Assembly: GCA_903824785.1 (NCBI GenBank)
Contig: CAIJYD010000101.1
Span: forward strand, 62,001 to 126,000
DNA length: 64,000 nt
Reading direction: 5' to 3'
Source: an uncultured Bacteroidota bacterium
Lineage (GTDB): Bacteria > Bacteroidota > Bacteroidia > Bacteroidales > VadinHA17
Below, piece after piece: positions 16,936 to 41,767 of this stretch (position 1 is its first letter; the number at the start of each line of letters is the position of its first letter). A program made the translations under genes and the position numbers. The notes under the pieces are model-generated. The model did not search any database. It saw nothing but the letters and a program-made list of their open reading frames with translations, and was not told the origin of the DNA.

Positions 16936-17026
16936 AATCTGATTGTTAATTATGGTTAGGTTTATGTTGAAGGTTTCAAAACTAATCTTTTTATCTGATG
17001 GAAGCAAGAAAATATTTGTAGTTTAA

Positions 17027-17635: not shown

Positions 17636-17660
17636 AAATGGCTCATAAATAAACTTATGG

Positions 17661-19111: not shown

Positions 19112-20128
19112 TTAATAGTATTTGGCAAGGGAACGGGCAGCTTCACTATATGCCCTGAAGTTTTCAGTTGATGTATCAGGCGGAATTTCACATCCGGCAG
19201 AGACTATTCCACGTCCGTCAGTTACATTGAAGCAATGCAGCACACTCTTCTCTATTGATTGAGGGTTTCCATCGCGAATGACAGAAACAGGGTCACTGTT
19301 TCCGGAAGGAACCTGTTTAGCAGAGAACAGTTGCATAAAATCGCCCATTGAGGTAACAAGGTGGTCTATGTCAACTATATCTGCACCTGTTTTTATCATG
19401 TCGGGCAGTATTGCTGTTGTATTTCCGCAGATATGGAGTTTAACCATGGCATTGAGCGAATGAGTATGGTCAATTAATGCCTTTTCAAGGGGAAAAATAA
19501 ACTCCTGATAAAGATCCGGAGAAATAAGTGAACAGACTGCATCTCCTATTCCAATGCAATGTGCACCGGCTTTTACCTGTTCCGTTATGAAACCAATTGC
19601 ACTTTCAGTCATAACGTTAAGTGCAATTTTCAGCTTTTCAGGATTTTCATACATATCCATGCATGCTGCTGATAAATCTCTGATATCACAATATGCAGCA
19701 AGCGGGCCCTCAACCCATCCGCAGATGAACTGAGTATCTCCAACCAGCCGGTTGAATTCCCTGACCTCATCAACCCTTGCTATTAATCTTGAATGATCTC
19801 TGACCTTTAGTACTGAAAGATTATCAACGTCATTTATCTCCTTAATTAAATATTCAGTAACCTGAGGCAGGTTGTTTTCCGGATAAGTAAGTTTTGTCCC
19901 GTACGCTGATGCTTCTGCATATGCGTCGGACATAACATTTACCCAGTCGTAAGAAAAATCAGTGGCACACAATATATTGGTTTCACATTTATGTTTGTAG
20001 CTCAGGCAAAAGTCCTTGTATTTAACACCTGCATATTGTGCGGCAAACCGCATCAGAATCGGATGAAAAGGGGGGCGGTCAACAGTAAGTCCGCTAATAA
20101 AATCCTGTGATCTTTGTAATGAATTCAT
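19112..20128 (-). CDS. UroD/MtaA-like methyltransferase
   Basis: A 338-residue UroD-superfamily TIM barrel. Unlike true uroporphyrinogen decarboxylase it carries the zinc motif of corrinoid methyltransferases (MtaA/MtbA/CmuA type): LHICGN gives His232 and Cys234, and SAGCEIPPDT gives Cys313, matching H-x-C-x(n)-C. Such enzymes activate a thiol on zinc and take a methyl group from a methyl-corrinoid. It is last of about ten same-strand genes for carbohydrate breakdown and sits 14 bases after an exported oxidoreductase gene. That setting speaks against haem synthesis and fits one-carbon removal from a methylated substrate (inference). No corrinoid-binding protein is encoded in the window. Confidence 0.8.
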   Translation of the reverse strand: MNSLQRSQDFISGLTVDRPPFHPILMRFAAQYAGVKYKDFCLSYKHKCETNILCATDFSYDWVNVMSDAYAEASAYGTKLTYPENNLPQVTEYLIKEINDVDNLSVLKVRDHSRLIARVDEVREFNRLVGDTQFICGWVEGPLAAYCDIRDLSAACMDMYENPEKLKIALNVMTESAIGFITEQVKAGAHCIGIGDAVCSLISPDLYQEFIFPLEKALIDHTHSLNAMVKLHICGNTTAILPDMIKTGADIVDIDHLVTSMGDFMQLFSAKQVPSGNSDPVSVIRDGNPQSIEKSVLHCFNVTDGRGIVSAGCEIPPDTSTENFRAYSEAARSLAKYY

Positions 20129-20142
20129 AAATAATGTTTTAA

Positions 20143-21411
20143 CTATTTGTCGAATTGTGATAAGTTTAACATTGGATCAAGCCTGGCATTGGAATTCCGA
20201 AGCTCATCCCAGCCAACTCTTTCGCCTGAGATTGCTGCTTCCCTTCCCAATATGGCTGTCAGTGTAGATTCTGCTCCGGATTTTGTCTGATTCAGGAATT
20301 TACCAGTTTCTATACTATTGATAAATGCAATCTCTTTGTTTGCGTCGGCATCCTGAAGGGCAGAGAGAAATACTCCGGCTTTTCTCTGTTCATCGGTAAG
20401 AACTGTGTTTGCACATCTTGGCACTCCTGAATCCCATGGATTACTTCCACTGATATAAACACCACCTGAATAATGAGCTTCAGCTGTTCCTTTTGTACCG
20501 ATAAATTTGGCACATACATCCCCGAAATGTGACCCGAATTGAGTGGCCAGAACGCTTACGTTTGTCCCGGGATATTGATATAAGACCTGAAAATGTTTCC
20601 AGGTATCTCCGAATTTGTGAGTTTCATCTTTTCCTCCGGTTGCAATTGCATCTGTAGGAAGTTTCTGGAGAGCCCAGTTGCAGACATCAATCATATGTAT
20701 GGCCTGATCAAGCATCACCCCACCTGACAATGCATGGAAGTTATACTGGTTCCGAACCCGGGCTTCATCGTAGGAGAGGCCTGTGATATTGCCGACAGCA
20801 GATTCTGTGGCAAGATAGCTGAGGTGAACGTTAAGTATGTCGCCTATATCACCCCTCTGTATCCTGCTTACCATCTCCACATACGGAGTAGCATGGCGGA
20901 TCTGAAAACCGATAACAATGCTTAATTTCCCGTCAACAAGGTTTCCAATATGTTCAACCTTACGGCAGCCGGCAACATCGGGAGCAGCAGGCTTTTCGCA
21001 ATAAATATGTTTTCCGGCCATGGCTGCAGCCTCAAGATAATCGGCATGGGTATAAGCAGGAGAAGATATCAGTACCGCATCAATATCTTTATTCTCAAGG
21101 AGGCGGAGATATGCTTTTGAACCGGTATATGTATAGGTTTTTGATACTTCAGAAAATCCCTTTTTTATATTCTGGGCATCGAGAATCTTTTTTGTGTATT
21201 CCAGCTTGTCCTTAAACAGATCAGCCATTGCAATTATGCTGATATTGGTATTGTTTGACATTGAGGTTATTACGCCTGTACCTCTTCCGCCGCAACCGAT
21301 AATTCCCATCCTGATTGCTGAGTTTGCTTTCGAACCAAAAGCAGTTGATGGACTGATTAATGTTATTGCAGAAATGGCCGCCGTGTTTTGTAAGAAATCT
21401 CTTCGTTTCAT
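20143..21411 (-). CDS. Exported Gfo/Idh/MocA-family oxidoreductase
   Basis: A 422-residue oxidoreductase with a Tat-type leader (MKRRDFLQNTAAISAITLI, twin arginine at 3-4). The N-terminal Rossmann fold has IGCGGRGTGV; CEKPAAPD is the family EKP motif; and GGVMLDQAIHMIDVCNW carries the catalytic-region Asp and His. Members oxidise or reduce sugar hydroxyls with NAD(P), which Tat-exported members bind before export. Its place in an operon with a second Gfo/Idh protein and a TIM-barrel isomerase-like protein suggests formation of keto-glycosides as a step in cleavage (inference). It is followed after 14 bases by the UroD-like gene. Confidence 0.9.
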   Translation of the reverse strand: MKRRDFLQNTAAISAITLISPSTAFGSKANSAIRMGIIGCGGRGTGVITSMSNNTNISIIAMADLFKDKLEYTKKILDAQNIKKGFSEVSKTYTYTGSKAYLRLLENKDIDAVLISSPAYTHADYLEAAAMAGKHIYCEKPAAPDVAGCRKVEHIGNLVDGKLSIVIGFQIRHATPYVEMVSRIQRGDIGDILNVHLSYLATESAVGNITGLSYDEARVRNQYNFHALSGGVMLDQAIHMIDVCNWALQKLPTDAIATGGKDETHKFGDTWKHFQVLYQYPGTNVSVLATQFGSHFGDVCAKFIGTKGTAEAHYSGGVYISGSNPWDSGVPRCANTVLTDEQRKAGVFLSALQDADANKEIAFINSIETGKFLNQTKSGAESTLTAILGREAAISGERVGWDELRNSNARLDPMLNLSQFDK

Positions 21412-21476
21412 ATATAATAGTATTTATTAAATTCAGCTTTTAAGTTCGGTAATAAATTACCTGGAGGGTCCAGCCA

Positions 21477-22673
21477 CTATTCAACCCATGTGTAAACTGC
21501 TATATCCCCGGGATCAACTTCAGTGTCATTCCGATAAACATCAGCTGAAGCCACGGAGCCATCTTTTGCTATTTTTTTCACATTTGCATTGCATTCAATG
21601 GTTAGCTTCATCGTATTCCTGAAATCGCGGTTAACGACGACAAGGTAAGAATTTTTACCGTTTTTAAGAATTGAGACAACCGCTCCGGTGCCTTCGGTTT
21701 TCAGCGATTTAATCTGAACGGGCAGACTTTCAAGCGGTTTGGTACCAGATGGAATAGAGTTGCCGGTATGTGTTACAGAAATAACAGTGGCCCCAAGGAA
21801 AACTGAAGACAGATTTCTGATTTCACTGTTTACCTGCTTTACCCTGTCATAAACAACTGTTCTTTTGCCTTTAAGATCAATAGGACCATTATTGAATTTC
21901 CAGACGGTATCAAGTGGTGTCCAGTAGGTAAAATACTGAATTCCCTGAGCTCCGTAAGCCAGGTTGCTGAAAACCTGGAGTCTCAGCTGTGCAACTGTTG
22001 GAATAGGATAGGGGCCGTGCGCAACAGATAGTGCAAAAGCCCAGAAAGGTTTCCCTGAATTTTTTGCTGCTTCGGAAATTATCTCAAGGTTCTCATACCA
22101 GTTGGCCCTTAAGGAATCGCCGAGAACAGGATAGTGGTCGAATGACAAAAGCTGAAGAGGAACCTCTTTGATAAACAGATCAACATGTTCTTTATATGTT
22201 TTAGTTCCAAGTTGTTTTTCGCTGGCATAATTAGGGAAAAGGTTGAGATAACAAAAATGGGTATCATCTGTGGCGCGTATTTTTTTTGCCCATTCGCCAA
22301 GGTCAGGAAAATCGGTACGGCAGGGTTCATCGCGGAGCATATAACCGGCAATAGCCGGGTGGTTCATAAACCGTTTTACAGTCTCTTCGGTTTTTGATTT
22401 AAGTTCAGGGCAGGAAACAATCATTTTTATACCTGCTTTCTGTGCAGTATCCAGTGCTTTCGACATTGTTTCCGCATCGGGGAAGAAGCTAAGATTATAT
22501 GTAATCCCTGTTTCTCTGAGTTCAAGATACCGCGTTAATGTGGTTTCCTGAGGTGGAATACTATACCAGGCCAGTATGGGGATCTGATTTTCCGATTTTG
22601 TCTGTTTTTCAGCTTCACGGCAGCCAGTTAGACAAAAGCCTAACCCAAATAATAGAAACACAAAATTTCTCAT
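21477..22673 (-). CDS. Glycoside-hydrolase-like lipoprotein (TIM barrel)
   Basis: A 398-residue lipoprotein. I prefer the ATG at 22673, three codons inside a GTG-initiated frame from 22682; the leader then ends in the lipobox CLTGC (Cys18). The body looks like a (beta/alpha)8 glycosidase of the beta-galactosidase-like clan: a predicted acid residue in GYMLRDEP, LSFDHYP on a later strand, PFWAFALSVAHGP and GIQYFTYWTP, then a C-terminal beta domain. I cannot assign a CAZy family. It should work in the periplasm or on the surface. It follows the cytoplasmic Gfo/Idh gene by about 45 bases in the long minus-strand operon. Confidence 0.7.
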   Translation of the reverse strand: MRNFVFLLFGLGFCLTGCREAEKQTKSENQIPILAWYSIPPQETTLTRYLELRETGITYNLSFFPDAETMSKALDTAQKAGIKMIVSCPELKSKTEETVKRFMNHPAIAGYMLRDEPCRTDFPDLGEWAKKIRATDDTHFCYLNLFPNYASEKQLGTKTYKEHVDLFIKEVPLQLLSFDHYPVLGDSLRANWYENLEIISEAAKNSGKPFWAFALSVAHGPYPIPTVAQLRLQVFSNLAYGAQGIQYFTYWTPLDTVWKFNNGPIDLKGKRTVVYDRVKQVNSEIRNLSSVFLGATVISVTHTGNSIPSGTKPLESLPVQIKSLKTEGTGAVVSILKNGKNSYLVVVNRDFRNTMKLTIECNANVKKIAKDGSVASADVYRNDTEVDPGDIAVYTWVE

Positions 22674-22718
22674 TTGATACACCTCTTTATATATTTAAAA
22701 AGCAATTAGATAAAAGTA

Positions 22719-23732
22719 TTATGTCGATAAGCCTGAAGATTTGTCGGCTGCAAATATTATTTTGTGGGTATGCATTGCATCAGCCAGACTGGTAAGCGGC
22801 ATTTCAGTTCCCTGATCAATTGCATTAAAAAATGCCTCAAACTGTGTCTGATACGGATGGTCAGAGACATCACCCGAATCGAGCATTTTCATTGATAACT
22901 CACTCCATTTTCCTTTGTTCAGGCCACCCAGCCGTGTGGAATAGAACTTATTATCAAGCAGGCTGCCTTCACTTCCGACGAGATGAATGTGAAAATAATA
23001 GGGCTGCAGACAATCAATTACTGACGAGACTTTACCAACGCTTCCGTCCTTGAACTTAAGAATTGTGACAGATGTGGTGGGATATTCATATCTGGCGAAA
23101 TCTTTATTGGCTGAAGATGCGGAATAGCTGGCAACATCTTTTACATCGGTTCCCATACACAACAACAGGGCATCGAGTGCATGGCATCCGGCTGAAAGCA
23201 GACTGCTTCCGGCTTCATCCTTTATTGTGTTCCATCGATATTGACCATACCAGGGGCCAATACCATGAAAATAATCAACTTCCCCATAGTGGATCTGTCC
23301 GAGAAAACCACCATCTATAAGCGACTTGATAGTTGTCAGCTGGCTTGAAAACCGGCATTCGAAACATACACAGCTCCTTACCCCGGCTGCATCAACTGCT
23401 TTCTGAACAGCCATACAATCTTCCCAGTTTAGTGCCAGCGGTTTTTCTATGATCAGATGCTTTCCTGCCTCTGCTGCCATAATTGCCTGCTTTGCATGTT
23501 CGGAGGGATAGCTGCAGATAGAAACAATATGAATTTCCGGATCAGCAAGCATCTGTTTCAGATCGGTGTAACATGTAATTTTGCTGCCATGCCTTGCACT
23601 TAGCTCAGCTGAATCGAGCTTCCTTGAAGAGCATATTGCCGTGACCTGCGCAACTGAAGTTTTATTAATAGCTTCAATGTGTGCTCCTGCAGCCCAGCTG
23701 TAACCTATAATACCAACTTTGTATTTCTTCAT
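22719..23732 (-). CDS. Cytoplasmic Gfo/Idh/MocA-family oxidoreductase
   Basis: A 337-residue NAD(P)-dependent oxidoreductase without signal peptide. The Rossmann loop reads GIIGYSWAAGAHIEA, the EKP motif IIEKPLALNW is present, and the active-site region reads SLLSAGCHALDALL, with His and Asp conserved. It is distinct from the exported homologue next door, suggesting that the pathway has a periplasmic and a cytoplasmic redox step. A plausible job is reducing or oxidising the imported keto-sugar (inference). It lies between the TIM-barrel isomerase-like gene (58 bases upstream) and the glycosidase-like lipoprotein gene. Confidence 0.9.
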   Translation of the reverse strand: MKKYKVGIIGYSWAAGAHIEAINKTSVAQVTAICSSRKLDSAELSARHGSKITCYTDLKQMLADPEIHIVSICSYPSEHAKQAIMAAEAGKHLIIEKPLALNWEDCMAVQKAVDAAGVRSCVCFECRFSSQLTTIKSLIDGGFLGQIHYGEVDYFHGIGPWYGQYRWNTIKDEAGSSLLSAGCHALDALLLCMGTDVKDVASYSASSANKDFARYEYPTTSVTILKFKDGSVGKVSSVIDCLQPYYFHIHLVGSEGSLLDNKFYSTRLGGLNKGKWSELSMKMLDSGDVSDHPYQTQFEAFFNAIDQGTEMPLTSLADAMHTHKIIFAADKSSGLST

Positions 23733-23790
23733 TGTTTTTTATTTTTTTGCTTAACAGAGTCAAATATCCTTTTCTATTGCTGAAGCAGAA

Positions 23791-24714
23791 TTAAGAAGAT
23801 GAAATAATTTTCTCAAGATAATCTTTTGTTTTTAAAATATATTCAGAATTGCGTCCGGCAAGTTCATATTCTATAGTGATACTACCGTTGAAGCCCAGTT
23901 TTTTCAGGTAGGAAATTATTTTTGGAAAATCAACTTCTCCATTAGGTATCGGTACCTCTTTTCCCAGTTCAACAGGATTTACAGGATACATTCCGTCTTT
24001 GGCATGAAGGGCTTTTACATACTTTCCGATCACTTTCAGACCATCCAGCGGATTAGACTTACCGTACATAACCAGGTTGGCAGTGTCATAATTAACAAAA
24101 AGGTTTCCGGTTCCGATATCCAGTATTGCTCTCAGGAGGGTGACCGGTGTCTCCTGTCCTGTTTCAAAATAGATATCAATGCCTTGTTTCAGAGCATGTT
24201 CCCCGATAGGTTTCATAGTATTTATGAACTCTGAATAGAGAATATCTTTCGGATCTTCAGGGATGAAGCCAAAATGGGCATGAACGGCGGGGATCCCTGC
24301 CGCTTTGCAGAAATCAATACCCTGCATGAGCCTTTCCACCCTTGCCGGCCGTTTTTCACGGGGTATCAGGCCAATAGTTGCAGGACCCTCTGTAAAATTC
24401 CAGACATAAGCCCCGGGGCCCATACATATCAGGGATGTTGCTTTTAGCTTGTATTTTTGCAGAGAGGCAGTAAGTCGTTTTGCCAGCTCCGGGGAATACT
24501 TTTCAATACTCAGCTGGCAGGTAGGAAAGCCAAGGTCTCTGACAAGTTTTAGATCCTCTTCCGGATTATTTGCACCTGAGATAACCCCAAGCTGCATGTT
24601 ACCTGCAGATTCTCCTGCGCTGATTTTATTCTTGTTTCCAAAAGAGAGACCCGGAGTTAAAATTGTAAGTGCTGAAACAGCAGTTGCATTCTTAAGAAAA
24701 AGACGACGTTCCAT
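23791..24714 (-). CDS. Exported sugar phosphate isomerase/epimerase-like TIM barrel
   Basis: A 307-residue protein of the xylose-isomerase-like TIM-barrel (AP endonuclease 2) superfamily, with a Tat-type leader starting MERRLFLKNATAVSALTIL. Metal-ligand segments are seen at AVHAHFGF, IYFETGQET, VNYDTANLVMYG, KALHAKDG and SITIEYELAG. Exported members found beside Gfo/Idh enzymes have been linked to cleavage or epimerisation of 3-keto-glycosides in Bacteroides, so the phosphate in the family name need not apply. It lies 58 bases upstream of the cytoplasmic Gfo/Idh gene in the same operon. The twin arginine sits at positions 3-4, which supports Tat export with cofactor or metal already bound. 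Confidence 0.87.
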   Translation of the reverse strand: MERRLFLKNATAVSALTILTPGLSFGNKNKISAGESAGNMQLGVISGANNPEEDLKLVRDLGFPTCQLSIEKYSPELAKRLTASLQKYKLKATSLICMGPGAYVWNFTEGPATIGLIPREKRPARVERLMQGIDFCKAAGIPAVHAHFGFIPEDPKDILYSEFINTMKPIGEHALKQGIDIYFETGQETPVTLLRAILDIGTGNLFVNYDTANLVMYGKSNPLDGLKVIGKYVKALHAKDGMYPVNPVELGKEVPIPNGEVDFPKIISYLKKLGFNGSITIEYELAGRNSEYILKTKDYLEKIISSS

Positions 24715-24753
24715 TTTTAACTTTTTAAAATTATCGAAGACATTATGTTTCTT

Positions 24754-27708
24754 TTAATTATTATCCAAAGGTTTTCCTTCACTGATAACTGTTATCTGCA
24801 CTCTTGAATTGACTCCTTCAGGACCTTTGCAATCAAATATTACTTCATTATCTCCTTCATTCAGGAGAGGGATTTTTCCTGACACAGGAACCTCCTTCAG
24901 GAATTCTCCTTTTGATCCATATAATTTGCAGTCTGTTTCCGACCTGAATTCAAGGTACATTCCCGACTCCATTTTTACCGGGAAAATTAATTTTTCGCCA
25001 CCGATGGTAACTGATGGGTCATTAATGGTTATTGGGACCAGAGGCAGTGCTTTAATGGTTCCTATAATACAGCTGACCTCTTTCCCTGCCGGCAGATTAT
25101 TATACCATAGCTGTAGCTTATCCACATTGTTAAACAAGACTGTATGGCGGAATGAATCATAAACATAAAATCCTGAATCGGGCCAGATATAATTGCTGAA
25201 TTCCGATGATTCAATTTCCACCAGCTCAAAATACTTCCATCCGGTGAAATCAATTTTGATAAAATGATCTCCCCTGGCTCCGTGAGAGAGATGCTTAGGG
25301 CTCTCTACTCTTAAGTTCAGCAGTTGTCCGTTTCCATCGCCTTTTACCCAGACTCCCAGTGCCTGATTTTTATTGATATCGAGTCCTGGTTCAAATTTTT
25401 TCTCCATTTTGAGCCACAATCCCTCAGTTGGTGTTATCACTGAATTATTTGCATAGAACAGACCACTTGCTCCGCCATCTTTTGATTTTTCGCCTGAAGG
25501 TTTTATTTCGCCTGAAACTTTTACTGAACTTCCCTCATTAATGAATTCTCCTGATTTTGAGAATCCGGCTAATACAACATTGGAAGGATCATGGAATGGT
25601 TTTACCGACATTAGAGGTTCTATTCTCAGCTTAACAGGTTGTTTACCAAATTCATTGGTGACTATCCATTTTGAGGAAGGATGAGTTAATCCTGCAACTT
25701 TATGTTTCTGCCAGGCAATAGGTTTGAAATTCCATTTGCCGTCATCCTGCTGAAAAAGTGTAAACTCTTTTCCGGGCTGCCGAAGCTGAGCACGAACAGA
25801 ATCATTGAAATAGTTTTTGTGTCTTAATTCTTCGTATTGTCTGATAATATCTACCAGCCGTCTGAAGAGAGGATTTGCATCGAGGGTTTTTTCATCAACA
25901 CCTCCAAGCATCGATAACCCCGCGTTGTTTCCTATCATCTTGCAGCAGAGGTATTCTATATCGTCAGGGAATGTTGGTTCTATCTGAGGAGGATTCCACG
26001 TCTGGTTTCCCCACCAGCCAAGATGAAGAGGCAGAAGTAATCCCCCATTTTCGGCCGGAGCATATTTATTGATTACCGGAGTATGTCCCCGCCAGAGGCC
26101 GTGTTCATTTTCATTTGATTTTATTTTCTCCGTCTGAAACAGGCGTGTTGATTTAATTGCAGCCGAGTGTATATCTTCAAAACGTTTGTATCCTCTTACA
26201 GGTCGGTCCCAAGCCTGCCAGCGTGAGCGATAATGCCACCAGTGGTGCGACATGGAGCTCATCTCCATGCCAACCGGATGTTTCAGCTGTTTCGCAACTT
26301 CAAAAATGAACTTGGTTCCGTAATACCAGAAATATTCTTCGCCTCCAAGAATATCGCTGCCATCAATAGCATCGAAATAAATCCCGTCAAATCCGCAATT
26401 GCTTACAATTTCTGCGGTATGGCGGGCTATCTCATCAAAGAGTGGAGTCTCGGGGCCGGGGACAAAACGGCCAAACATCTCGCGCAGGTGAAAAACTTTT
26501 TCATTTACACCGAATGAGGAAGCTGTCGTTCCGGCCACACCACGTTTACATCCGGTAAACTTATATGGAGCTGTTTTTGATACACCGCTGAATTCGATAA
26601 TCTCACATCCAACTCTGAGAGACAGGCTGTTCCTTACAAAAAAGCCGGTTGTGGTTGAGATATTTTCAGTTGTTTCATTAACAACTATCTCACTGTCTCC
26701 GGCCAATAATGGTTTCGCAAGGGTGAAGGAGCTGAAATAGCCAAGATCGCTGCTCGGCACCGGAGTGACATATTTCGAATTTTTGTCAATGAAAAAGGCA
26801 TAGGTGTGAAATATGGAAGAGATCCCTGCTTCGTGAAGGCGGGTGTTTATTCTTTTATAAGAGTCCCAGCCGTCGGGCCATTTTGTTTTGTTAAGCTCAA
26901 AATCACCGAACCTGAAGAACTCACCACCGCCATGGTTGTCTATCTGGTTGAAACCAAGGTTGCGGCACATCTTAATCCATTCATCAACGGTAGCTTCAGT
27001 TAGTGTGCCGAAGTTCATTAAATATGATCCGTAGCCCTCTTTTTGCATTTGAGCCCAGGCTCCTCCTTTATCGGAAAACGGAACATCTTTCGCATGTTCC
27101 ATAACATCCCTTATTAACGGCAGTATTTTTGGAAGGGGTACGCCAAGCAGGGTGACTTCAGCTCCCTTCATCCCAAAGTGATTATAGCATGTTGCCCAGA
27201 GATCTGTCTGAAGAGCAGGTATCTGACGCACACGGGTAAATAAATTCATTGACAGGAGACAGGCGGCAAACTGCTCATATGGCATTCCTTCAAGGCTGAG
27301 CGGAATATTTATGAAAGTAAGCGATTCTGCTGGTCCGGTTACAGAAGTTACTTTAAAAACTACCCGGTCTTTCTTTTTGTTAATACTGATATCAGCTGTC
27401 ACTCCTGCTTTGGTAAATCCCAGCTTAAGATTATTTCCCCTGAGGGAGGCACTGTTGACGGAATATTCTTTTCCTTCTGACATGATTGATGCACACATCG
27501 ATAGAGAATCGCTGCTGAGATAATCCGTACCGGAAATCTTATCGGTAAAATGAAGGTTTTTTCCCTGGCTGTCAATTTCATATCTGAAATAGCTGCTCTC
27601 AATAATAATATTTGATGCAGGTTCTTTGGAACAACTTATAATCATTATACTGCAAACGCCAATGATAAGAGCCGTCAGGCTTAACGGATACTGATATTTT
27701 ATTTTCAT
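24754..27708 (-). CDS. Large lipoprotein with glycosidase-like barrel, family not recognised
   Basis: A 984-residue lipoprotein (leader ends IIISC, Cys26). The N-terminal 200 residues look like a beta-sandwich. A central region (about 200-600) reads like a TIM-barrel glycosidase: FGTLTEATVDEWIKMCRNLG, GFDGIYFDAIDGSD (candidate catalytic Asp), and PVGMEMSSMSHHWWHYRSRW. The C-terminal third is all-beta and includes a carbohydrate-binding-like stretch around LGVWVKGDGNGQLLNLRVE. The pattern recalls alpha-galactosidase-clan enzymes, but I cannot assign it to a CAZy family. It lies 20 bases downstream of the rhamnosidase gene, so it probably attacks the same substrate. Confidence 0.72.
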   Translation of the reverse strand: MKIKYQYPLSLTALIIGVCSIMIISCSKEPASNIIIESSYFRYEIDSQGKNLHFTDKISGTDYLSSDSLSMCASIMSEGKEYSVNSASLRGNNLKLGFTKAGVTADISINKKKDRVVFKVTSVTGPAESLTFINIPLSLEGMPYEQFAACLLSMNLFTRVRQIPALQTDLWATCYNHFGMKGAEVTLLGVPLPKILPLIRDVMEHAKDVPFSDKGGAWAQMQKEGYGSYLMNFGTLTEATVDEWIKMCRNLGFNQIDNHGGGEFFRFGDFELNKTKWPDGWDSYKRINTRLHEAGISSIFHTYAFFIDKNSKYVTPVPSSDLGYFSSFTLAKPLLAGDSEIVVNETTENISTTTGFFVRNSLSLRVGCEIIEFSGVSKTAPYKFTGCKRGVAGTTASSFGVNEKVFHLREMFGRFVPGPETPLFDEIARHTAEIVSNCGFDGIYFDAIDGSDILGGEEYFWYYGTKFIFEVAKQLKHPVGMEMSSMSHHWWHYRSRWQAWDRPVRGYKRFEDIHSAAIKSTRLFQTEKIKSNENEHGLWRGHTPVINKYAPAENGGLLLPLHLGWWGNQTWNPPQIEPTFPDDIEYLCCKMIGNNAGLSMLGGVDEKTLDANPLFRRLVDIIRQYEELRHKNYFNDSVRAQLRQPGKEFTLFQQDDGKWNFKPIAWQKHKVAGLTHPSSKWIVTNEFGKQPVKLRIEPLMSVKPFHDPSNVVLAGFSKSGEFINEGSSVKVSGEIKPSGEKSKDGGASGLFYANNSVITPTEGLWLKMEKKFEPGLDINKNQALGVWVKGDGNGQLLNLRVESPKHLSHGARGDHFIKIDFTGWKYFELVEIESSEFSNYIWPDSGFYVYDSFRHTVLFNNVDKLQLWYNNLPAGKEVSCIIGTIKALPLVPITINDPSVTIGGEKLIFPVKMESGMYLEFRSETDCKLYGSKGEFLKEVPVSGKIPLLNEGDNEVIFDCKGPEGVNSRVQITVISEGKPLDNN

Positions 27709-27728
27709 TTTAAAATGTATGACTGAGA

Positions 27729-30191: not shown

Positions 30192-30198
30192 AGTTATC

Positions 30199-32031
30199 TT
30201 ATTTATGAGTATCACGGCCTTCCCAGCCACTCTTACCTTTATCCATAAAAACTTCCTGAAGAGTTTTTGATACTCTGCTGTCAACTTCTTCAACCAGCTG
30301 TATTCTTAAAGGCTGTGTAAGACGTTTTTGCCAGTCGAGAACAGGGGCAAAGAGGTCACCGTTTTTACCGGTTTCAAAGACGAGGTACGCCCATTTTTCT
30401 GAAAATACGTTCCCTTTCAGAGCAGGTACAACCTGCTGCATGTTAGAGGAGAGGAATGGATGAGAGAGGCCTCGGGCCCAGTATATCCAAGGTCCGGCAG
30501 TTATATAGAAGAAAGGATTCAGTAGTCTGACAGGCGATTCGATGCTGGCATTTGCATAGCTGATCTGGATACCTGCAAAACCGATTCCTTTTTCTTTGTT
30601 GAAAAAGATGATCCAGGGAACATCTGCTTCCATCTTCAGGTCGGTGAGGTCGGGCATATTCGTAACATCGTAAACAATTACGGAATCTCTTACCACATCG
30701 TACCAGGCAGCATGTGTTATAAGCTCACGTTTGAATACCATTTCAGAATTTCTGAGGGCAAGAGTATTAACTGTTTCGTTAATACGCATGCATGTTGAAC
30801 TGAAGAAATAGGGCATACCGGGGAAGAATTCATATCTGACAGAAGCATCAACTTCAGGAACTTCTCTCATACTATCCCATACTTCACTTTTTGCAACCAC
30901 AGAACCGGAAACAGTTTTAATATTTCTTGGCGGTTTCCAGTCGGCAGTGTGAGTCCATGCCCGCGGAGGAACATAAATATCGGGATTCCAGTGCATCGCA
31001 CCATTGGTTTCAAGCCTGTGAAAGAAAGGGAGGTCTGGTTTGCTTTTCAGTGTTATCTGGTCGAGATGTCCTGAATTGGAATGAAGTATTACTGAGAAGA
31101 CATCATTATCAATCTGTAGTCCGGGAGCTTCTCCCTGAACCCTTAAGTCGGTCTTGTACAGTTTATCCTTTGCATCAGGATTATTGTAGTAAACAAGGAA
31201 AACGCGGCTCGATTTTGCAGCTACATCAGCAAGAAAAGCAACTCGTACAGTTACAGTAGGTACCCAGAGAGGGACCTGGCGTGTAAGTTTTCCATCTTTA
31301 TCGGGGCCAAGGTCATCTTCTTTGAGGTATTCCTGCAGATCATAAACCTGCGAAACAACTTCTGTAAGTTTATGTGTCTTCGGATCAACTTCAACTACGC
31401 GGATATCCCTGAACAACTGTTGTGCCTCATCAGGATAGAAAGCCAGCAATACTTCAACAGGTTCTTTTGCTCTGCTTATTCCTGCAGTTTCACTGATAAT
31501 CACCGATTTATAGCTTTTCCATTCTTTACCAAAAACTGTAGCACCCTGAGGGGCTTTTACTGTTTTTTCGGAACTGATCCATACATCGTCACTTGCCGCC
31601 TTTACTGATTTTTTCAATCTTACTGAGATCCGGATCTTATAATCCTGACCCGGCTGCCATCTGACCCAGCCAACAACACTAAAGTTTTTATAGAGAGTAC
31701 CATCCTGAGACAGACCGTATCCGGCCGGCGGACGCTCTGATAGGGGAGGCCGGTTCATATTCTCAATGTCCCCATCCCTTCGCAGGTCGGTGGCTCTCAG
31801 AACGGTGCCATCAACTGCTGCTTCAACTTCAATTATAGAAGTCTGAGGCAATTCAATTTCGGCTTTGAAGTGGTAAAAAGGTATACCGGGACAAGGATAA
31901 CCTAATTCTATCTGAGTTATCTTTAATTCGACTGCAGCTTTTGATTTCTGTGCAATAAGTGTTAATGCAGGTAACATAGTCAGCAGGAAAATGAATATGA
32001 CTCCTGATTTGAATAATTTGGATTTTTTCAT
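30199..32031 (-). CDS. Exported protein of unknown function (610 aa)
   Basis: A 610-residue secreted protein with a Sec signal peptide (MKKSKLFKSGVIFIFLLTML, cleavage probably after LIAQ). It looks all-beta throughout. Recognisable stretches are DNDVFSVILHSNSGHLDQI, GAMHWNPDIYVPPRAWTHT and VPWIIFFNKEKGIGFAGIQI. The middle part resembles the beta-supersandwich of galactose-mutarotase-like or lyase domains, but I recognise no family and no catalytic motif. It lies 7 bases upstream of the GH78 gene and 85 bases downstream of a duplicated 890-residue unknown, so it belongs to the same substrate locus. It could be a lyase, a binding protein or a debranching helper. Confidence 0.72.
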   Translation of the reverse strand: MKKSKLFKSGVIFIFLLTMLPALTLIAQKSKAAVELKITQIELGYPCPGIPFYHFKAEIELPQTSIIEVEAAVDGTVLRATDLRRDGDIENMNRPPLSERPPAGYGLSQDGTLYKNFSVVGWVRWQPGQDYKIRISVRLKKSVKAASDDVWISSEKTVKAPQGATVFGKEWKSYKSVIISETAGISRAKEPVEVLLAFYPDEAQQLFRDIRVVEVDPKTHKLTEVVSQVYDLQEYLKEDDLGPDKDGKLTRQVPLWVPTVTVRVAFLADVAAKSSRVFLVYYNNPDAKDKLYKTDLRVQGEAPGLQIDNDVFSVILHSNSGHLDQITLKSKPDLPFFHRLETNGAMHWNPDIYVPPRAWTHTADWKPPRNIKTVSGSVVAKSEVWDSMREVPEVDASVRYEFFPGMPYFFSSTCMRINETVNTLALRNSEMVFKRELITHAAWYDVVRDSVIVYDVTNMPDLTDLKMEADVPWIIFFNKEKGIGFAGIQISYANASIESPVRLLNPFFYITAGPWIYWARGLSHPFLSSNMQQVVPALKGNVFSEKWAYLVFETGKNGDLFAPVLDWQKRLTQPLRIQLVEEVDSRVSKTLQEVFMDKGKSGWEGRDTHK

Positions 32032-32116
32032 GATAATAGACTCATTTAAAGTGATATTAATATATTTTTAACTTCCCGATTGAAGGTATAAATTCAGCGT
32101 TTAGTAAAAACTGAAA

Positions 32117-34789
32117 CTATTGTTCCGAAATCAGGTTCCTTTTTCTTAACTCATCAACACCATTTTTCCATGTACCGCCTGCGGCCCACATATAATATGA
32201 AAAATACATTGTACTCTTCTGGTATATCGGAATCCATGGCTGGAATTCAGTGTAATAGAAATGTGCTTCTCCGTTTGATGGATGGTTCATCCACATGTGC
32301 AGGAACAGTGGTTCGGTAACAGGAAACGCTCCAACAAATGATATGTCCTCCTTTGTGTCATAGCCTGCATTCCATCCTTCTTTAAGGAAGAACAGCCGGC
32401 CGTAATATTTTTCAGGCTTCATCCTGTACTCATGCAAACCATCTTTTTCAGGTACTGTGAAAACATCTTCAAGCCAGTGTTTTGCTCCAAGTTCAAGGAT
32501 AGGCTGAGGGCCGATCACGTTGGCTTCCGGATTGCGGAAAGTAAGGGCAAACTGAACTTCAAGCAAGGGTGAATTTCCATAAAGTGTAAATATCTTTTCA
32601 AGTCTGTTTCCAAAGTAATCTGCAGACATTTTTACCCTTACATAATCTCCTTCTTTTTTAAGGACCTCAACATTATAGATTTTATGGGTCTCCATGCTTC
32701 CCTGGCCAAGGAAATCTTCAAAACCGCCATAAGGGTAGTATCCTCTTTTTCTGAAGAGACGTTTGTCGTCGGCAGCTTTTTCCGGCCACAGTTTGAAGAA
32801 GACGTTATCATTTCTTGATTTTACAATGTATTCAATTACGCGGGCGCCGGTGGCAAGAAGTGTTACCTGAACGCTGTCGTTTTCCATTCTGTATTCCATA
32901 ACTCCATCGCTGTTAAGATCCACTTCGTACAGGTAGGGAGCTCCTGAAATTGCACCAACGCCAAGCTGACTGAGGTTTTCAAGACCAAGTGCTGTAACCT
33001 TGACTGTATAACTTCCGGGTGGTACTTCGAGGTCAAATGAAGTTTCCTTAAATGTTGAAGTTGCCGCAGCGATTGTTTTTGTGGCAGAGTATATCACCTT
33101 CTTAGGGTTGGCTTTATCAAGTACTTCTACTTTCACAGGGAACGTAGGTTTGTCGGTGAAATTATGGACGGTTACCGGATAGGTAACTTTTGGTGTATGT
33201 CCGTAAAGAAGCTGCTGAGCAGATATTGCACGTGGAAGGTCGAGTATTGTGAGGGTGCTTTTCTTGCTTGTTTCCCATTTAAAATGAACTGCAACCGGAT
33301 TTGTTTTATCCATTGCTGCTGCCTGAGGCTTCAGACCGAATTGCATTGTTTTTGAGGTATTTGCGGGGAGATTTACCTGAGCGGTGAGAGTGCCTGACAT
33401 TTTCAGTTCAGGAGGTAGCACTATTTCAAGTGTTCCCGAAACAGGATGGGAATATGTATTGGTAAGAGTTACATTCAGCTGATAATTTTCTGTTGATGCC
33501 TCAATATTTACACGGTCGCCAAAATACTCTTCCAGGAAAACACGATCAAGAAGCAGTAATTCCAGGGTGTTTCGGTATAAAGCAGGCCCCATCATCCTGC
33601 CATTGCCGAGGACAGCCACTTCGCGGCGGTCCATTATAGCCTCATACATAAGCGGTTTTGTTATACGTTCACCCTTTTTTATAAAAAGAACCATTGAGTT
33701 TTCAGTGCCATTGTAGAGAGGACCCGTTGTGGTAATAAATGGTACATTTTCATTGTCAATCTGCTCTTTGTTTCCTTCTGTGGCAATATAGCCATCGTAA
33801 TGAAAGGCATCGGCTGTTGTGTCATAAACCTGACGGAACACATAACCTTCCTTCTCATGGGCATATGTTATCCATGAATCGTTGGTAAACATGCTTTGCA
33901 CCTGCAATCCGTCATAATTCTTAAGGCCGTACATCGGACTGAAACCAACATCAGCAACAACAGGAAGATTAACTTTTGCCAGCCAGTCAATAAGTTCTTT
34001 CTGAGCCAGAAAATCCATATAGCCGCTGAATGTAAACCAGGTGTTTCCTTCATTCATTCCTTTTCCAATCACCTCCAATGGATGACCGGGAGTACAGGTG
34101 ACGCTTTTCAAAAGAGTCTCTGTTCCAAACCAGCCACGACTGAGGTCATATTTTCCCAAAAGGTTTTTTGCATCATCAATAAGCTGCAATGCTTTAGTAC
34201 GTTGATCTTTACTTTTAGAGGAAATGATGAATATTTTTCTTCCTGCCTTTTCAATATAAAAAAGATTTACTTCAATATAATCCTTTGCCCCATACTGATG
34301 GCTTTTCAGTTTTTCTTTCCAGCCGTCATCAGCCGGAAGTTTTTCAGCAAGTTTTTTACCTGCTTCGGTATCGGGGTCGATCAGGACCAATGCGTTATTT
34401 GTTGCGGTAGTTTCGCCTATTTTCTGAAGTGAAGGCTGATCAAGAAGAACATACTGAACATTCAGGAGGGAGTTCATAAATCCCTCTTCAACGGATAGTC
34501 CTGGAATTTTCAGGTCGTCAGCAATATCCAGCTTGTTCTGGGCAATAGTGTAATCAACATTGGGCATTACCATCTTGAAGAGATTTCCGTAGCGGATATT
34601 CTCACGATAGATGTCGTGCCAGTAGTTTGTATAGCCGTTAAACTGAAAATTGGTAGTTACTTTGTTCTTATCCGGACTAAAAGAGCCATTATACTTATAG
34701 TCATCCAGATTTTGCGCATAGCCGGATAGGCTTAACAGTGTAAGCATCAGGGCAGTCAGAAAGCAGTGATTTTTAAATAATGTTTTCAT
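32117..34789 (-). CDS. Exported 890-aa protein of unknown function, paralogue B
   Basis: An 890-residue secreted protein (signal peptide to about residue 25, cleaved near SGYAQ). The N-terminal half includes an alpha/beta region (GKKIFIISSKSKD-like helix-strand pattern and GHPLEVIGKGMNEGNTWFTF). Next come Ig-like beta domains (LEIVLPPELKMSG, PVTVHNFTDKPTFPVKVEVL). The C-terminal 300 residues are a beta-supersandwich-like region (YYPYGGFEDFLGQGSMETHK, YGNSPLLEVQFALTF). It is a paralogue of the gene immediately upstream, with identical length. A hand count over an 84-residue C-terminal block gives about 82% identity. No known catalytic motif was recognised. Position in the operon suggests a polysaccharide-active or -binding role (inference). 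Confidence 0.75.
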   Translation of the reverse strand: MKTLFKNHCFLTALMLTLLSLSGYAQNLDDYKYNGSFSPDKNKVTTNFQFNGYTNYWHDIYRENIRYGNLFKMVMPNVDYTIAQNKLDIADDLKIPGLSVEEGFMNSLLNVQYVLLDQPSLQKIGETTATNNALVLIDPDTEAGKKLAEKLPADDGWKEKLKSHQYGAKDYIEVNLFYIEKAGRKIFIISSKSKDQRTKALQLIDDAKNLLGKYDLSRGWFGTETLLKSVTCTPGHPLEVIGKGMNEGNTWFTFSGYMDFLAQKELIDWLAKVNLPVVADVGFSPMYGLKNYDGLQVQSMFTNDSWITYAHEKEGYVFRQVYDTTADAFHYDGYIATEGNKEQIDNENVPFITTTGPLYNGTENSMVLFIKKGERITKPLMYEAIMDRREVAVLGNGRMMGPALYRNTLELLLLDRVFLEEYFGDRVNIEASTENYQLNVTLTNTYSHPVSGTLEIVLPPELKMSGTLTAQVNLPANTSKTMQFGLKPQAAAMDKTNPVAVHFKWETSKKSTLTILDLPRAISAQQLLYGHTPKVTYPVTVHNFTDKPTFPVKVEVLDKANPKKVIYSATKTIAAATSTFKETSFDLEVPPGSYTVKVTALGLENLSQLGVGAISGAPYLYEVDLNSDGVMEYRMENDSVQVTLLATGARVIEYIVKSRNDNVFFKLWPEKAADDKRLFRKRGYYPYGGFEDFLGQGSMETHKIYNVEVLKKEGDYVRVKMSADYFGNRLEKIFTLYGNSPLLEVQFALTFRNPEANVIGPQPILELGAKHWLEDVFTVPEKDGLHEYRMKPEKYYGRLFFLKEGWNAGYDTKEDISFVGAFPVTEPLFLHMWMNHPSNGEAHFYYTEFQPWIPIYQKSTMYFSYYMWAAGGTWKNGVDELRKRNLISEQ

Positions 34790-34800
34790 GGCAATTTTTA

Positions 34801-34835
34801 TAATGGTTAATGGTTAATGGTTAATGGTTAATGGT
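34801..34835. repeat. Tandem heptamer repeat (TAATGGT x5)
   Basis: Five exact head-to-tail copies of the 7-base unit TAATGGT lie in the 71-base spacer between the two 890-residue paralogues, starting 12 bases upstream of the paralogue B start codon. A slippage-prone repeat here, in the leader or translation-initiation region of paralogue B, could vary spacing between isolates. Confidence 0.9.
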
Positions 34836-34860
34836 TCGTCAAAATAAAGTGGGGATTGAA

Positions 34861-37533
34861 TTACTGTTCGGTTATTAGATTACGGTCTCTTAATGATTTT
34901 ACTCCATTTTGCCATGGGCCGCCTGTACCCCAGAAATAGTATGTAAAATACATTGTGCTTTTCTGAAAAATTGGTACCCAGGGCTGGAATTCGTGACAAT
35001 AGAAATGGGCATCAGGATTTCTTGGGTGGTTCATAAACATATGGAGGAAGAGTGGAGGCTTAACAGGAAAGGCAGCCACAAAACTGATATTTTCCTTTGT
35101 ATCATAACCGGCATCCCATCCCTCTTTCAGATATATTACCCTTCCAAAATATCTTTCAGGCTGCATTCTGTATTCATGTAATCCATCTTTCTCTGGTGTA
35201 ATGAAAACATCCTCGGTCCAGTGTTTCTTTCCAAGTTCAAGCACAGGTACTGGTGCAATCATATTGGCTTCAGGGTTTTTGAAAGTAAGAGCAAACTGCA
35301 CTTCGAGAAGTGGTGAGTTTCCGTATAATGTGTAAATTTTTTCCAGTTTGTTTCCAAAATAATCAGCAGTCATTTTCACTCTGATATAGTCGCCTTCCTT
35401 TTTAAGAATTTCAGCGTCATAAACCTTATGTGTTTCCATGCTTGCCTGACCAAGGAAATCTTCAAAACCTCCGTATGGATAATAACCTCTTTTTCTGAAT
35501 TTTCGTTTTTCATCGACAGGTTTTATGGGCCATATTCTATACATCACATTATCTTTTCTGGATTTAACGATATATTCAATAACGCGTCCACCTGTTCTCA
35601 GAAGAGTAAGCTTCACGCTGTCATTTTCCAAAATGTATTCGTTTACACCATCGCCGTCAAGATCTGCCTCAGATAATTTTGGGGCACCGGATGCTGTTCC
35701 CACTCCAAGCTGCTGATGACTTTCAAGGCCGAGTGCTGTAATCTTCACATCATAACTGCCTGCCGGGACTTTAAGATCAAATATAACCTCGCTGAATGTA
35801 CCTTTGGGGGTAGTGCAGGAGAGGGTGTTGCTGAATACTGATTTGTCCGGTTTATTCTTATCAAGAACCTCTATTTTTACGGGGAATGTTGACTGATCAG
35901 TGAAATTGTGTATTGTAACCGGAAATCTTACCTCAGGAGCATGGCCATAAAGAAGCTGGTGAGCAGAGATTGCAGGCGGGAGATCGAGCATTGTAAGAGT
36001 TGTTTTTTTTCCGGTTTCCCATTTGTAATGAACTGCAACGGGATTTGTCTTGCTCATTGCACTTGCATCAGGCTGTAAGGCAAATTGCAATCTCTTAGAG
36101 CTGTTGGCAGGGAGAGTGAGCTCAACAGAAAGCGACCCGGCCATTTTCAATTCAGGAGGAAGAACTATTTCCAGCATGCCCGATACAGGGTGTGCATAAG
36201 TATTGCTGACAGTAACATTAAGCTGATAATTCTCTGTAACAGCTTCAAGACTTACCCTGTCGCCAAAATACTCTTCTAGAAAAACCCTGTCAAGAAGCAG
36301 AAATTCAAGAGTGTTCCGGTAAAGTGCAGGCCCCATCATCTTACCGTTGGCAATCACTGATACCTCCCGGCGCTGCATAATGGCATCCCATAAGTTCTGA
36401 TCAGAGATCTGTTCACCTTTGTTTATGAAGAGCATCATGCAGGGGACAGCATCATTGTCGAGAGCACCTGTTGTTGTAACAAACGGAACATTATAATTGT
36501 CAATCTGTTCTTTATTACCTTCAGTAGCGAAATAACCATCATAGCTATAGAGGTCTGCGGCGGCATCATCTACTTTTCTGAAGACATAGCCATTTTTTTC
36601 ATGAGCAAAATTGATCCATGATTCATTTGTAAACATATTCTGAACCTGCAATCCATCATAGTCTTTACATCCGAAAACCTGACCGTATCCAACCTGGGCT
36701 ATAACGGGAAGTTTCACTTTGGCAAGCCAGTCGACAATTTCTTTTTGTGCAAGAAAATCCATATAACCGCTGAAAGTAAACCATGTATTACCTTCATTCA
36801 TTCCTTTTCCAATAACTTCCAGGGGATGACCGGCAGTACAGGTGACGCTTTTCAGAAGCGTTTCGGCTCCGAACCAGCCGCGGTGAAGATCATATTTTCC
36901 AAGTATGCTTTTTGTATTATCGATCTGAGTAAGTACTTTTTCGCGCAGCTCCTTACTTTTAGATGATATGACATATATTTTCTTTGGGCCGTTTTCGAGA
37001 TAAAAAACATTTACCTCAGTAAAATTCACAGCATTGTACTGATGGCTTTTGAGCTTTTCTCTCCACTCGTCTTTTGCAGGCAGAAGGGAGGTAAGTTTTT
37101 TACCCGCCTCTGTATCAGGGTCGGTTAAGACCAGAACATTATTGTCATGAATTGCTTCACCAAGTTTTTGAAGTGATGGCTGATCAAGAAGAATATATTG
37201 TCCGTTAAGAAGGCTGTTTAAAAATCCTTCCTGCATCGATAATCCTGTAATATTCATATCGTCAGCAATATCCAGTTTGCTTTGGGCAATTGTGTATTCA
37301 ACATCAGGGACCTCCTCCTTAAACAGGTTTCCATAGCGAATCTGTTTATTGAAGATGTCGTGCCAGAAGTTAGTATAGCCGTTAAACTGAAAACCTGACT
37401 TTACTGCATTTTCATCGGGATGAAAAGATCCATTGGATTTAAACTCTTTAAGATCCTGAGCGAATGCAATACTTCCGGACATAACTATGGCCAGAGCAGG
37501 CAGAAGGTAATGCTTTAAGAAATCAGTTTTCAT
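34861..37533 (-). CDS. Exported 890-aa protein of unknown function, paralogue A
   Basis: An 890-residue secreted protein, paralogous to the next gene along its whole length (same domain order, same length, shared blocks such as GHPLEVIGKGMNEGNTWFTF and GPALYRNTLEFLLLDRVFLE). The signal peptide ends near SIAFAQ. The C-terminal domain has YYPYGGFEDFLGQASMETHK and is beta-rich. It is the promoter-proximal gene of the long minus-strand operon, preceded by a 370-base gap. Divergence between the copies is concentrated in the N-terminal and Ig-like regions, which suggests different partner or substrate specificities (inference). Family unknown to me. Confidence 0.75.
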   Translation of the reverse strand: MKTDFLKHYLLPALAIVMSGSIAFAQDLKEFKSNGSFHPDENAVKSGFQFNGYTNFWHDIFNKQIRYGNLFKEEVPDVEYTIAQSKLDIADDMNITGLSMQEGFLNSLLNGQYILLDQPSLQKLGEAIHDNNVLVLTDPDTEAGKKLTSLLPAKDEWREKLKSHQYNAVNFTEVNVFYLENGPKKIYVISSKSKELREKVLTQIDNTKSILGKYDLHRGWFGAETLLKSVTCTAGHPLEVIGKGMNEGNTWFTFSGYMDFLAQKEIVDWLAKVKLPVIAQVGYGQVFGCKDYDGLQVQNMFTNESWINFAHEKNGYVFRKVDDAAADLYSYDGYFATEGNKEQIDNYNVPFVTTTGALDNDAVPCMMLFINKGEQISDQNLWDAIMQRREVSVIANGKMMGPALYRNTLEFLLLDRVFLEEYFGDRVSLEAVTENYQLNVTVSNTYAHPVSGMLEIVLPPELKMAGSLSVELTLPANSSKRLQFALQPDASAMSKTNPVAVHYKWETGKKTTLTMLDLPPAISAHQLLYGHAPEVRFPVTIHNFTDQSTFPVKIEVLDKNKPDKSVFSNTLSCTTPKGTFSEVIFDLKVPAGSYDVKITALGLESHQQLGVGTASGAPKLSEADLDGDGVNEYILENDSVKLTLLRTGGRVIEYIVKSRKDNVMYRIWPIKPVDEKRKFRKRGYYPYGGFEDFLGQASMETHKVYDAEILKKEGDYIRVKMTADYFGNKLEKIYTLYGNSPLLEVQFALTFKNPEANMIAPVPVLELGKKHWTEDVFITPEKDGLHEYRMQPERYFGRVIYLKEGWDAGYDTKENISFVAAFPVKPPLFLHMFMNHPRNPDAHFYCHEFQPWVPIFQKSTMYFTYYFWGTGGPWQNGVKSLRDRNLITEQ

Positions 37534-38998: not shown

Positions 38999-39220
38999 TT
39001 CCGGGAACTGCCAGAATTGATCATTTCCTGATATTTTTGAATTGGAGGTGGAAAGCATGGTTTCAAAATTTATAATTAATATTACAATAATTGTAACTGC
39101 CCGGTACTTGAAGTGCGGAGTGGTTAAAGTTAAATAATCCGGTGGTATAAACAATCTCTTTGTGAGATTAACATTTATAGATTTGGAAGGCTACTTGCGT
39201 CAGGAGTGAGCAGTGCGAAG

Positions 39221-39387: not shown

Positions 39388-39428
39388 CTATTATGCTACG
39401 AACCCTTTTAAGCCCGGTAAAAAAGAAA

Positions 39429-41612: not shown

Positions 41613-41718
41613 ATTTTTCTAAAGTTTAGCGTGAGATAAGAATCTGAATTATCTTCTTTATTTTTAACTTTTGACTTTTGATTTTTGATTTTTAATTCCA
41701 GCCACTTATTATTAATGA

Positions 41719-41726: not shown

Positions 41727-41767
41727 TTATTATGCTAAGAATCCTTTTCAGTCCGGTAAAAAAGAAA

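Follow-up and report, generated by a model that had tools for sequence, protein, structure and literature searches.

Gfo/Idh oxidoreductases and isomerase-like proteins are encoded together in the operon of a 3-keto-glycoside pathway in Bacteroides (BT2157–BT2159), and plant and algal glycans frequently contain O-methyl sugars, chiefly 4-O-methyl-glucuronic acid. For methoxy-aromatic compounds, O-demethylases of the URO-D superfamily are known (PMC13222342, in the portion available). Among the matches listed in the literature searched, mostly open and partly in excerpt, none described a URO-D O-demethylase acting on sugars or lying in a glycan operon, nor an enzyme removing the methyl group of a sugar ether without oxygen. 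The locus considered here comprises ten genes, g1 to g10 in transcription order, running from position 37533 to position 19112 on the minus strand of a 64,000-nucleotide stretch of contig CAIJYD010000101.1 from an uncultured Bacteroidota bacterium, the whole stretch being termed the window. It is a glycan-degradation operon of a known kind that carries two uncurated protein families and, in a tentative reading that falls slightly short of an even chance, it would degrade a rhamnose-bearing, O-methylated glycan with cytoplasmic corrinoid-dependent O-demethylation.

Gene content of the operon and the g10 protein

The ten genes are as follows, with the evidence in brackets:

34861..37533, minus strand: g1, 890-residue exported protein and paralogue of g2, its family uncurated (Pfam, NCBIfam, 70% identity to g2)
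32117..34789, minus strand: g2, 890-residue exported protein (structure model and fold comparison)
30199..32031, minus strand: g3, 610-residue exported, mostly beta protein, partner of the 890-residue family (model, neighbourhoods)
27729..30191, minus strand: g4, GH78 alpha-L-rhamnosidase-like lipoprotein starting at ATG 30191 (Pfam, lipobox by eye)
24754..27708, minus strand: g5, 984-residue lipoprotein with a weak CBM_11-like part and perhaps a glycosidase-like barrel (by eye)
23791..24714, minus strand: g6, twin-arginine exported AP_endonuc_2/xylose-isomerase-like barrel (Pfam, 3tva, motifs by eye)
22719..23732, minus strand: g7, Gfo/Idh/MocA oxidoreductase without signal, EKP motif (Pfam, NCBIfam)
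21477..22682, minus strand: g8, GH42-like lipoprotein (Pfam)
20143..21411, minus strand: g9, twin-arginine exported Gfo/Idh/MocA oxidoreductase, EKP motif (Pfam, NCBIfam)
19112..20128, minus strand: g10, predicted corrinoid-dependent demethylase of the URO-D superfamily, MtaA/CmuA type (Pfam, NCBIfam, 4ay7, triad, tree)

In the open reading frame listing of the window, ten minus-strand frames span positions 19112–37533 exactly. The GH78 gene g4 is listed with a TTG start at 30293, which overlaps g3 by 95 bases; its first ATG lies at 30191, where a lipoprotein start can be read by eye, and with the start moved there the intergenic gaps are 71, 85, 7, 20, 39, 58, 36, 65 and 14 bases, the 7-base gap being a consequence of this choice. 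The ten same-strand genes with gaps of 7–85 bases proposed in a preliminary description of this DNA are thus borne out, and so are, from Pfam and the N-termini, its GH78 protein, its two Gfo/Idh proteins (one exported), its exported isomerase-like barrel and its view of an exported degradation operon with three large proteins, g1, g2 and g3, outside any curated family. Export was judged from the N-termini by eye: twin-arginine starts were read directly in g9 (MKRRDFLQ) and g6 (MERRLFLK) and lipoboxes in g5 and g8, and a lipobox-like script match at residue 40 of g9 was discounted because it sits inside the nucleotide-binding motif.

The g10 protein (the predicted METHYLTRANSFERASE) belongs to the URO-D family (PF01208, 196.9 bits, cut-off 23.9). 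Its best NCBIfam model is mtaA_cmuA (TIGR01463), at 125.5 bits below a cut-off of 235.4, with hemE at 72.6, and its nearest solved relative is the methylcobalamin:coenzyme M methyltransferase 4ay7 (E-value 1.5e-17). The methyltransferase named earlier at this position can therefore be specified as a URO-D protein of the MtaA/CmuA type and, because of this family, the modification is predicted to be an O-methyl group that the enzyme would remove rather than add. The rhamnose-bearing, modified glycoside suggested as target is plausible and supported in part.

Three residues of g10, H232, C234 and C313, are conserved without exception in the 10 relatives aligned and line up with 4ay7 (H-x-C ... 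C), forming a His/Cys/Cys triad that looks metal-ligand-like by sequence; such residues bind zinc in MtaA and MtbA. The H-C-C combination occurs in 26 of 29 sequences from other genomes, mostly picked by similarity to g10, versus 2 of the 20 URO-D genes of the window genome, nine of which are H-C-H. A FastTree phylogeny of 49 sequences, with outside members likewise mostly taken for their similarity to g10, places g10 and its operon orthologs with a relative from genome G378 (support 0.999), and this group then joins one with a corrinoid-linked gene of genome G093 (0.997). The nine H-C-H proteins of this large URO-D expansion (L157, L160, L166) fall into one branch, together with some H-D-H and other types. 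A possible clustering of URO-D with Gfo/Idh genes in the window genome was set aside as evidence, because four distances were used uncorrected and the Gfo genes are themselves clustered: 4 of the 20 URO-D genes have such a neighbour within 2 kb (p 0.013), 3 kb (p 0.039) or 5 kb (2.0 expected, binomial p 0.14), and 8 within 10 kb (p 0.013). One stretch of this genome (G000:C106:62014-78961) holds an unusual array, with eleven Gfo/Idh genes on the same strand over about 17 kb.

At an E-value of 1e-25, relatives of g10 were found in 20 of 393 genomes of the order, its own included, and in 15 of 206 genera; other genomes than that of the window contributed 26 matches, 20 of which were fetched. A corrinoid protein is encoded within four genes of the relative in 2 of these 20 loci: in G093 the g10-like gene (37% identity) adjoins it, and in G250 two URO-D genes flank it, each locus also encoding a CobW-like GTPase that scores below the cut-offs. 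A similar GTPase (by eye) lies beside the two URO-D genes of G206, and in G031 a more distant URO-D gene (27% to g10) directly follows a row of corrinoid protein (CoP), methyltransferase (MeTr) and MetV genes. The G378 relative, at 54% the closest found outside the genus, stands with genes for a glucuronate isomerase (645 bits, cut-off 387), a UxaE tagaturonate epimerase (167.2, cut-off 27.1) and a TRAP transporter protein DctP (234.7, cut-off 175), and with two further TRAP subunits recognised by eye; no such uronate genes were seen in the other 19 fetched loci, few of whose neighbours were scanned against the family libraries. A second g10-like URO-D gene in G002 (L177:3358-6768 on contig C43; 31–32%) directly follows a gene with a rhamnosidase match of 31.7 bits, far below the cut-off, and may be an independent case of pairing.

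In the window genome, contig C87 encodes in a row a corrinoid protein, a pterin-binding methyltransferase (PRK07535, 262.8 bits, over the cut-off of 259), a MetV/MTHFR protein and a Met_synt_B12 protein, with a RACo activase about 12 kb beyond; the CoP-MeTr-MetV-Met_synt_B12 cluster is also present in G075 and G018. About 3 kb before the C87 cluster lie genes for a twin-arginine Gfo protein and an isomerase-like barrel (L033:4140-13203), with minus-strand genes between, and homologues of these two genes directly adjoin the corrinoid cluster of G075 (L171). RACo was rejected as a marker of the pathway, being present in 13 of 62 genomes of the genus and not found in G075, G016 and G018.

These data bear on a different role for g10, that of a second methyltransferase passing the methyl group from a methyl-corrinoid to an acceptor in the manner of MtaA and MtbA. 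The best models and the nearest structure are of that type, and the triad is of the kind ascribed to those enzymes. The role could, however, be filled by the pterin-binding methyltransferase encoded beside the corrinoid gene on C87, and a substrate-specific operon fits a substrate-specific step better. Moreover, the URO-D superfamily does include O-demethylases (MtvB, OdmB, VdmB), and some O-demethylases contain zinc (PMC13222342, in the portion available), so that a second methyltransferase is regarded as quite improbable here, and O-demethylation is preferred.

A recurring but variable locus

All four Bac_rhamnosid domains (N, concanavalin-like, six-hairpin and C) of g4 exceed the Pfam cut-off, and g4 is by family a GH78 alpha-L-rhamnosidase. 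The CBM_11 match of g5 (23.8 bits) is below the cut-off of 27, that of g8 to GH42 (25.6 bits) is above the cut-off of 21, with a best solved relative at an E-value of 0.013, and g7 and g9 are Gfo/Idh proteins by Pfam. The g6 protein matches AP_endonuc_2 in Pfam and has candidate acidic/His motifs (FETGQE, NYDTAN, LHAKDG, IEYEL) picked by eye; its nearest solved relative, 3tva (E-value 9e-35), carries no more specific name than xylose isomerase domain protein.

Relatives of g1 were sought in 60 genomes, 36 of them of the genus, and those of g5 in 62 genomes of the genus, the window genome (G000) being included in both searches; G and L codes denote the genomes and loci compared. Matches to g5 occur in 18 of the 62, several of them distant. 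Long relatives of g1 or g5 are present in nine genomes of the genus (G000, G002, G007, G011, G013, G014, G016, G018 and G075), whose neighbourhoods were read as far as the fetched stretches and contigs reached. The set stands together in four of them, namely the window genome, G014 and G002 (on two contigs each) and G075. Since further genomes of the genus contain this gene set as well, the operon is more than a chance arrangement.

Among these four members, the 890-residue protein, the GH78 protein, the 984-residue protein and g10 are each found in all four, the 610-residue protein in three (it is missing at the G014 locus), g7 and g9 in three (both missing in G075) and g8 in two (window and G002), and g6, present in the window, is absent from G002 and G075, its place in G014 being unreadable at a contig end. 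In G075, a BD-FAE esterase gene lies between the GH78 and 984-residue genes. On one short contig, G016 carries g7-g9-g10 along with the sugar transporter and a 984-residue gene cut by the contig end. The single degradation system of the preliminary description accordingly stands as a recurring locus and not as one fixed ten-gene pathway, for g3 and g6–g9 vary among the members.

The flanking genes are the following:

37904..39154, minus strand: BNR-propeller lipoprotein directly upstream of g1 (recurs in three of four, absent from the G075 stretch read)
39393..43948, plus strand: two adjacent paralogous exported proteins of 738/739 residues, tandem alpha/beta-hydrolase (esterase-like), divergent
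17864..19081, plus strand: MFS transporter, divergent (four of four)
17027..17635, minus strand: SIS-domain sugar-phosphate isomerase, KpsF-like below cut-off (four of four)
15595..17007, minus strand: GluP/FucP/NagP-type sugar MFS transporter, gluP over cut-off (four of four)
14499..15593, minus strand: APH-fold sugar kinase-like protein (four of four)

The block of four genes downstream of g10 includes two additional genes in G075, and one homologue of the esterase-like pair lies nearby in each of G014 and G002. Because the BNR gene and the downstream genes at 14499–17635 recur too, the locus is wider than ten genes; it consists of a core plus variable parts, continues into genes for the uptake and phosphorylation of sugars, and is variable though recurrent within one Bacteroidota genus. 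SusC and SusD were found neither in the ten genes (Pfam) nor among the neighbours at 13823–19081 and 37904–56281, positions 1–13582 and 56268–63535 being unscanned.

This distribution weighs against an oxidation–elimination scheme in which g9 oxidises the glycoside at C3, g6 eliminates the aglycone with formation of a 3-keto-glycal and g7 reduces the keto-sugar, g10 being incidental. Both g9 and g6 have twin-arginine starts in one operon, g7 and g9 carry EKP and g6 acidic/His motifs, the solved relatives of g9 include DgpA structures (ranked after inositol dehydrogenases), and the same chemistry is performed by an Agrobacterium operon with Gfo and isomerase-like proteins (PMC10628242, in the portion available). 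However, g9 reaches just 59.2 bits with the glycoside 3-dehydrogenase model BT_2158_fam (NF058561), far below its cut-off of 750, the name of 3tva goes no further than a domain, and g6 is absent where its place is readable, in G002 and in a G075 locus that also lacks g7–g9, both of which keep the GH78, 984-residue and g10 genes. The scheme was therefore demoted from main explanation; the 3-keto route is possible, being chemically plausible as an optional rather than conserved part of the locus, and as an account of the operon it is unlikely.

The position of g10 bears, in turn, on another view, that of an ordinary locus for rhamnosides or pectin side chains in which g10 is a URO-D paralogue with an unrelated cytoplasmic function. 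Such a view is consistent with a genome holding 20 URO-D genes, two of them H-C-C, with a GH78 protein typical in its domains, and with small corrinoid proteins in genomes of the genus that have few URO-D genes. Yet an ortholog of g10, 65–78% identical, sits in the corresponding position, ahead of the divergent MFS gene, in the three other members, g10 keeps its triad, and its closest branch-mates include the corrinoid-linked gene. An unrelated function thus appears improbable, and O-demethylation tied to the glycan is retained as the working interpretation.

The 890- and 610-residue protein families

Two exported families of the operon, the 890-residue proteins (g1 and g2, 70% identical paralogues) and the 610-residue protein g3, look new in that they are uncurated: no Pfam family (for g1 at an E-value of 0.01) and no NCBIfam family matched any of the three. 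The 890-residue family was followed in a one-genome-per-species collection of 84,980 species, in which the best 80 of 111 encoding stretches gave 77 loci, many of them short; all are recorded as Bacteroidota except L094 (Aminicenantes). Neighbour clustering called the 890 gene in 75 of these loci and the 610 gene in 52, and the 610 gene directly follows the 890 gene in 50 of the 72 loci with room downstream (median gap 34 bases; 22 without it). With one representative per cluster checked by Pfam, SusC-like genes occur in 28 and SusD-like genes in 22 of the 77 loci, and GH29, GH92, GH2, GH3, GH109-like and DUF4838 proteins are each found in at least one. A GH78 gene like g4 is present in 4 of the 77, so both families are widespread without GH78. 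In L032 (4524-7060, G011), a broken 890 gene in two pieces lies beside an open GH78 gene.

Pfam tallies, which do not tell which matches reach their cut-offs, gave weak matches of 49 members of the 890 family to AmyA-gluTrfs_C (17, best E-value 0.014), CarboxypepD_reg (14, best 0.0088), NPCBM_assoc (4, the best overall at 0.0002) and GH38C (once, 0.11); in the 610 family, DUF4861 was the most frequent match (2 of 29 members, best 0.061). When the 890-, 610- and 984-residue families, g5 included, were compared by sequence with solved structures, no significant relative appeared; a viral fold library gave low-TM background only. The model of g2 is confident (predicted local distance difference test, pLDDT, 90.7; predicted template-modelling score 0.87) and, from a reading of its secondary structure, comprises an alpha/beta N-terminal part (44–425), a beta/Ig-like middle (427–612) and a C-terminal sandwich (about 615–870). 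Fold matches of the whole chain come mainly from the Ig part; the sandwich matches the aldose-epimerase-like structures 3k25, 1jov and 3nre (TM-scores of 0.50–0.59 on target), and the modelled fold is one that ends in a mutarotase-like domain. The g3 model is poor (pLDDT 60.2) and mostly beta, its best and weak match being the GH38 mannosidase 5kbp (E-value 2.9e-6, TMq 0.30); no catalytic (beta/alpha)7 domain of GH38 with its metal site was found in this protein, by Pfam or in the low-confidence model.

That the two proteins are halves of one split GH38-like enzyme was dropped as an idea, the comparison of family profiles being nil (hhalign probability 0.5). The 890 profile likewise matched neither the 984-residue family nor a DUF5107-TPR protein of about 1056 residues that occurs near the 890 gene in seven loci (L049, L050, L052, L055, L088, L096 and L104; one representative checked) and shares with the 890 proteins, by eye, an F-x-GY-x-N start. 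We infer that the 890- and 610-residue proteins may act as a glycan-binding or glycan-cleaving pair.

Proposed pathway and comparison with described systems

The pathway we infer, including its substrate, the activity and direction of g10, its cofactor and the roles of the 890/610 proteins, would operate in a genus that is probably anaerobic. Binding and dismantling of the glycan would take place outside the cytoplasm, through the 890/610 proteins, the GH78 protein and the 984-residue lipoprotein, joined in some genomes by the GH42-like protein and the exported Gfo and isomerase-like proteins, and the oligosaccharides released, with rhamnose and an O-methyl sugar, would be imported by the sugar transporters. 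Within the cytoplasm, g10 would remove the methyl group from the O-methyl sugar (the likeliest being an O-methyl-uronate such as 4-O-methyl-glucuronate, a choice that follows from the single neighbourhood in G378) and hand it to a corrinoid protein encoded elsewhere in the genome, from which the pterin-binding methyltransferase and MetV/MTHFR would move it into the folate pool. Since RACo was not found in G075, G016 and G018, these genomes would need another route of reactivation, perhaps through the Met_synt_B12 protein present in G075 and G018.

Several observations weigh against this interpretation. The g10 protein scores below the cut-offs of all six NCBIfam models matched, and its triad resembles that of enzymes which we take to pass methyl groups to thiols, so the reverse direction is possible. 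No corrinoid protein is encoded in the operon; corrinoid neighbours are limited to 2 and a uronate context to 1 of the 20 fetched loci, no GH78 gene was seen within 10 kb of g10-like genes in other genera among the matches listed, and a further 395 genomes of the class gave no added relative at an E-value of 1e-50. The full set is confined to four of the nine genomes with long 890 or 984 relatives, and G007, G011, G013 and G018 have their 890, 610, 984 or GH78 genes separate from one another or among other neighbours. The genomes without detected RACo are 100% (G075), 87% (G016) and 89% (G018) complete and have g10 orthologs or many URO-D genes; moreover, G010, G029 and G084, with two URO-D genes each, still encode at least one small corrinoid protein, so there is no strict tie between the module and g10. 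The missing RACo and this lack of a tie are real weaknesses of the demethylation model.

A broader proposal, more doubtful than that for the operon itself, is that Bacteroidota glycan operons carry substrate-specific corrinoid O-demethylases for sugar methyl ethers, with 4-O-methyl-glucuronate as first candidate, which would work in the absence of oxygen and supply a common corrinoid/folate module encoded elsewhere, and that the 890/610 pair forms a new and widespread two-protein machine for glycan processing. With the locus, sugar O-demethylation can be tested on purified proteins for a specified gene, cofactor system and class of substrate; for enzymologists it also offers two widespread exported families without curated name, one of them with a confident fold model.

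Compared with described folds, GH38 beta domains, AmyA-gluTrfs_C (GH57-type) domains and aldose-epimerase-like sandwiches resemble, respectively, the 610 model (weakly), the 890 members (weakly) and the 890 C-terminal domain, whereas no significant solved relative is found by sequence and likeness of fold does not show activity. With GH78 polysaccharide-utilisation loci the operon shares exported glycosidase-like proteins, a sugar transporter, a kinase and an isomerase; it differs in its three uncurated proteins and in having no SusC/SusD among the ten genes, unlike many 890/610 loci elsewhere. The 3-keto-glycoside pathways (the Agrobacterium AtOGE operon, DgpABC) also combine Gfo/Idh and isomerase-like proteins in one operon, but no close sequence match to their known enzymes was found, and G002 and G075 do without g6. 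MtaA, MtbA and CmuA are the nearest to g10 in family score, structure and triad, although g10 stays below every curated cut-off scored and, to our knowledge, pathways using coenzyme M are not expected in Bacteroidota. Finally, the corrinoid O-demethylases MtvB, OdmB, VdmB and MtoB, and CdmB for chloromethane, are substrate methyltransferases of the URO-D fold (PMC13222342, in the portion available), a fold shared by g10, for which that role is predicted. Candidates for the accompanying small corrinoid protein, methyltransferase of folate type and reductive activator are encoded in the window genome, while G075 has the module without RACo. Whereas those systems act on methoxy-aromatics or haloalkanes, g10 is set in a glycan operon, with a predicted sugar substrate and its corrinoid module on another contig.

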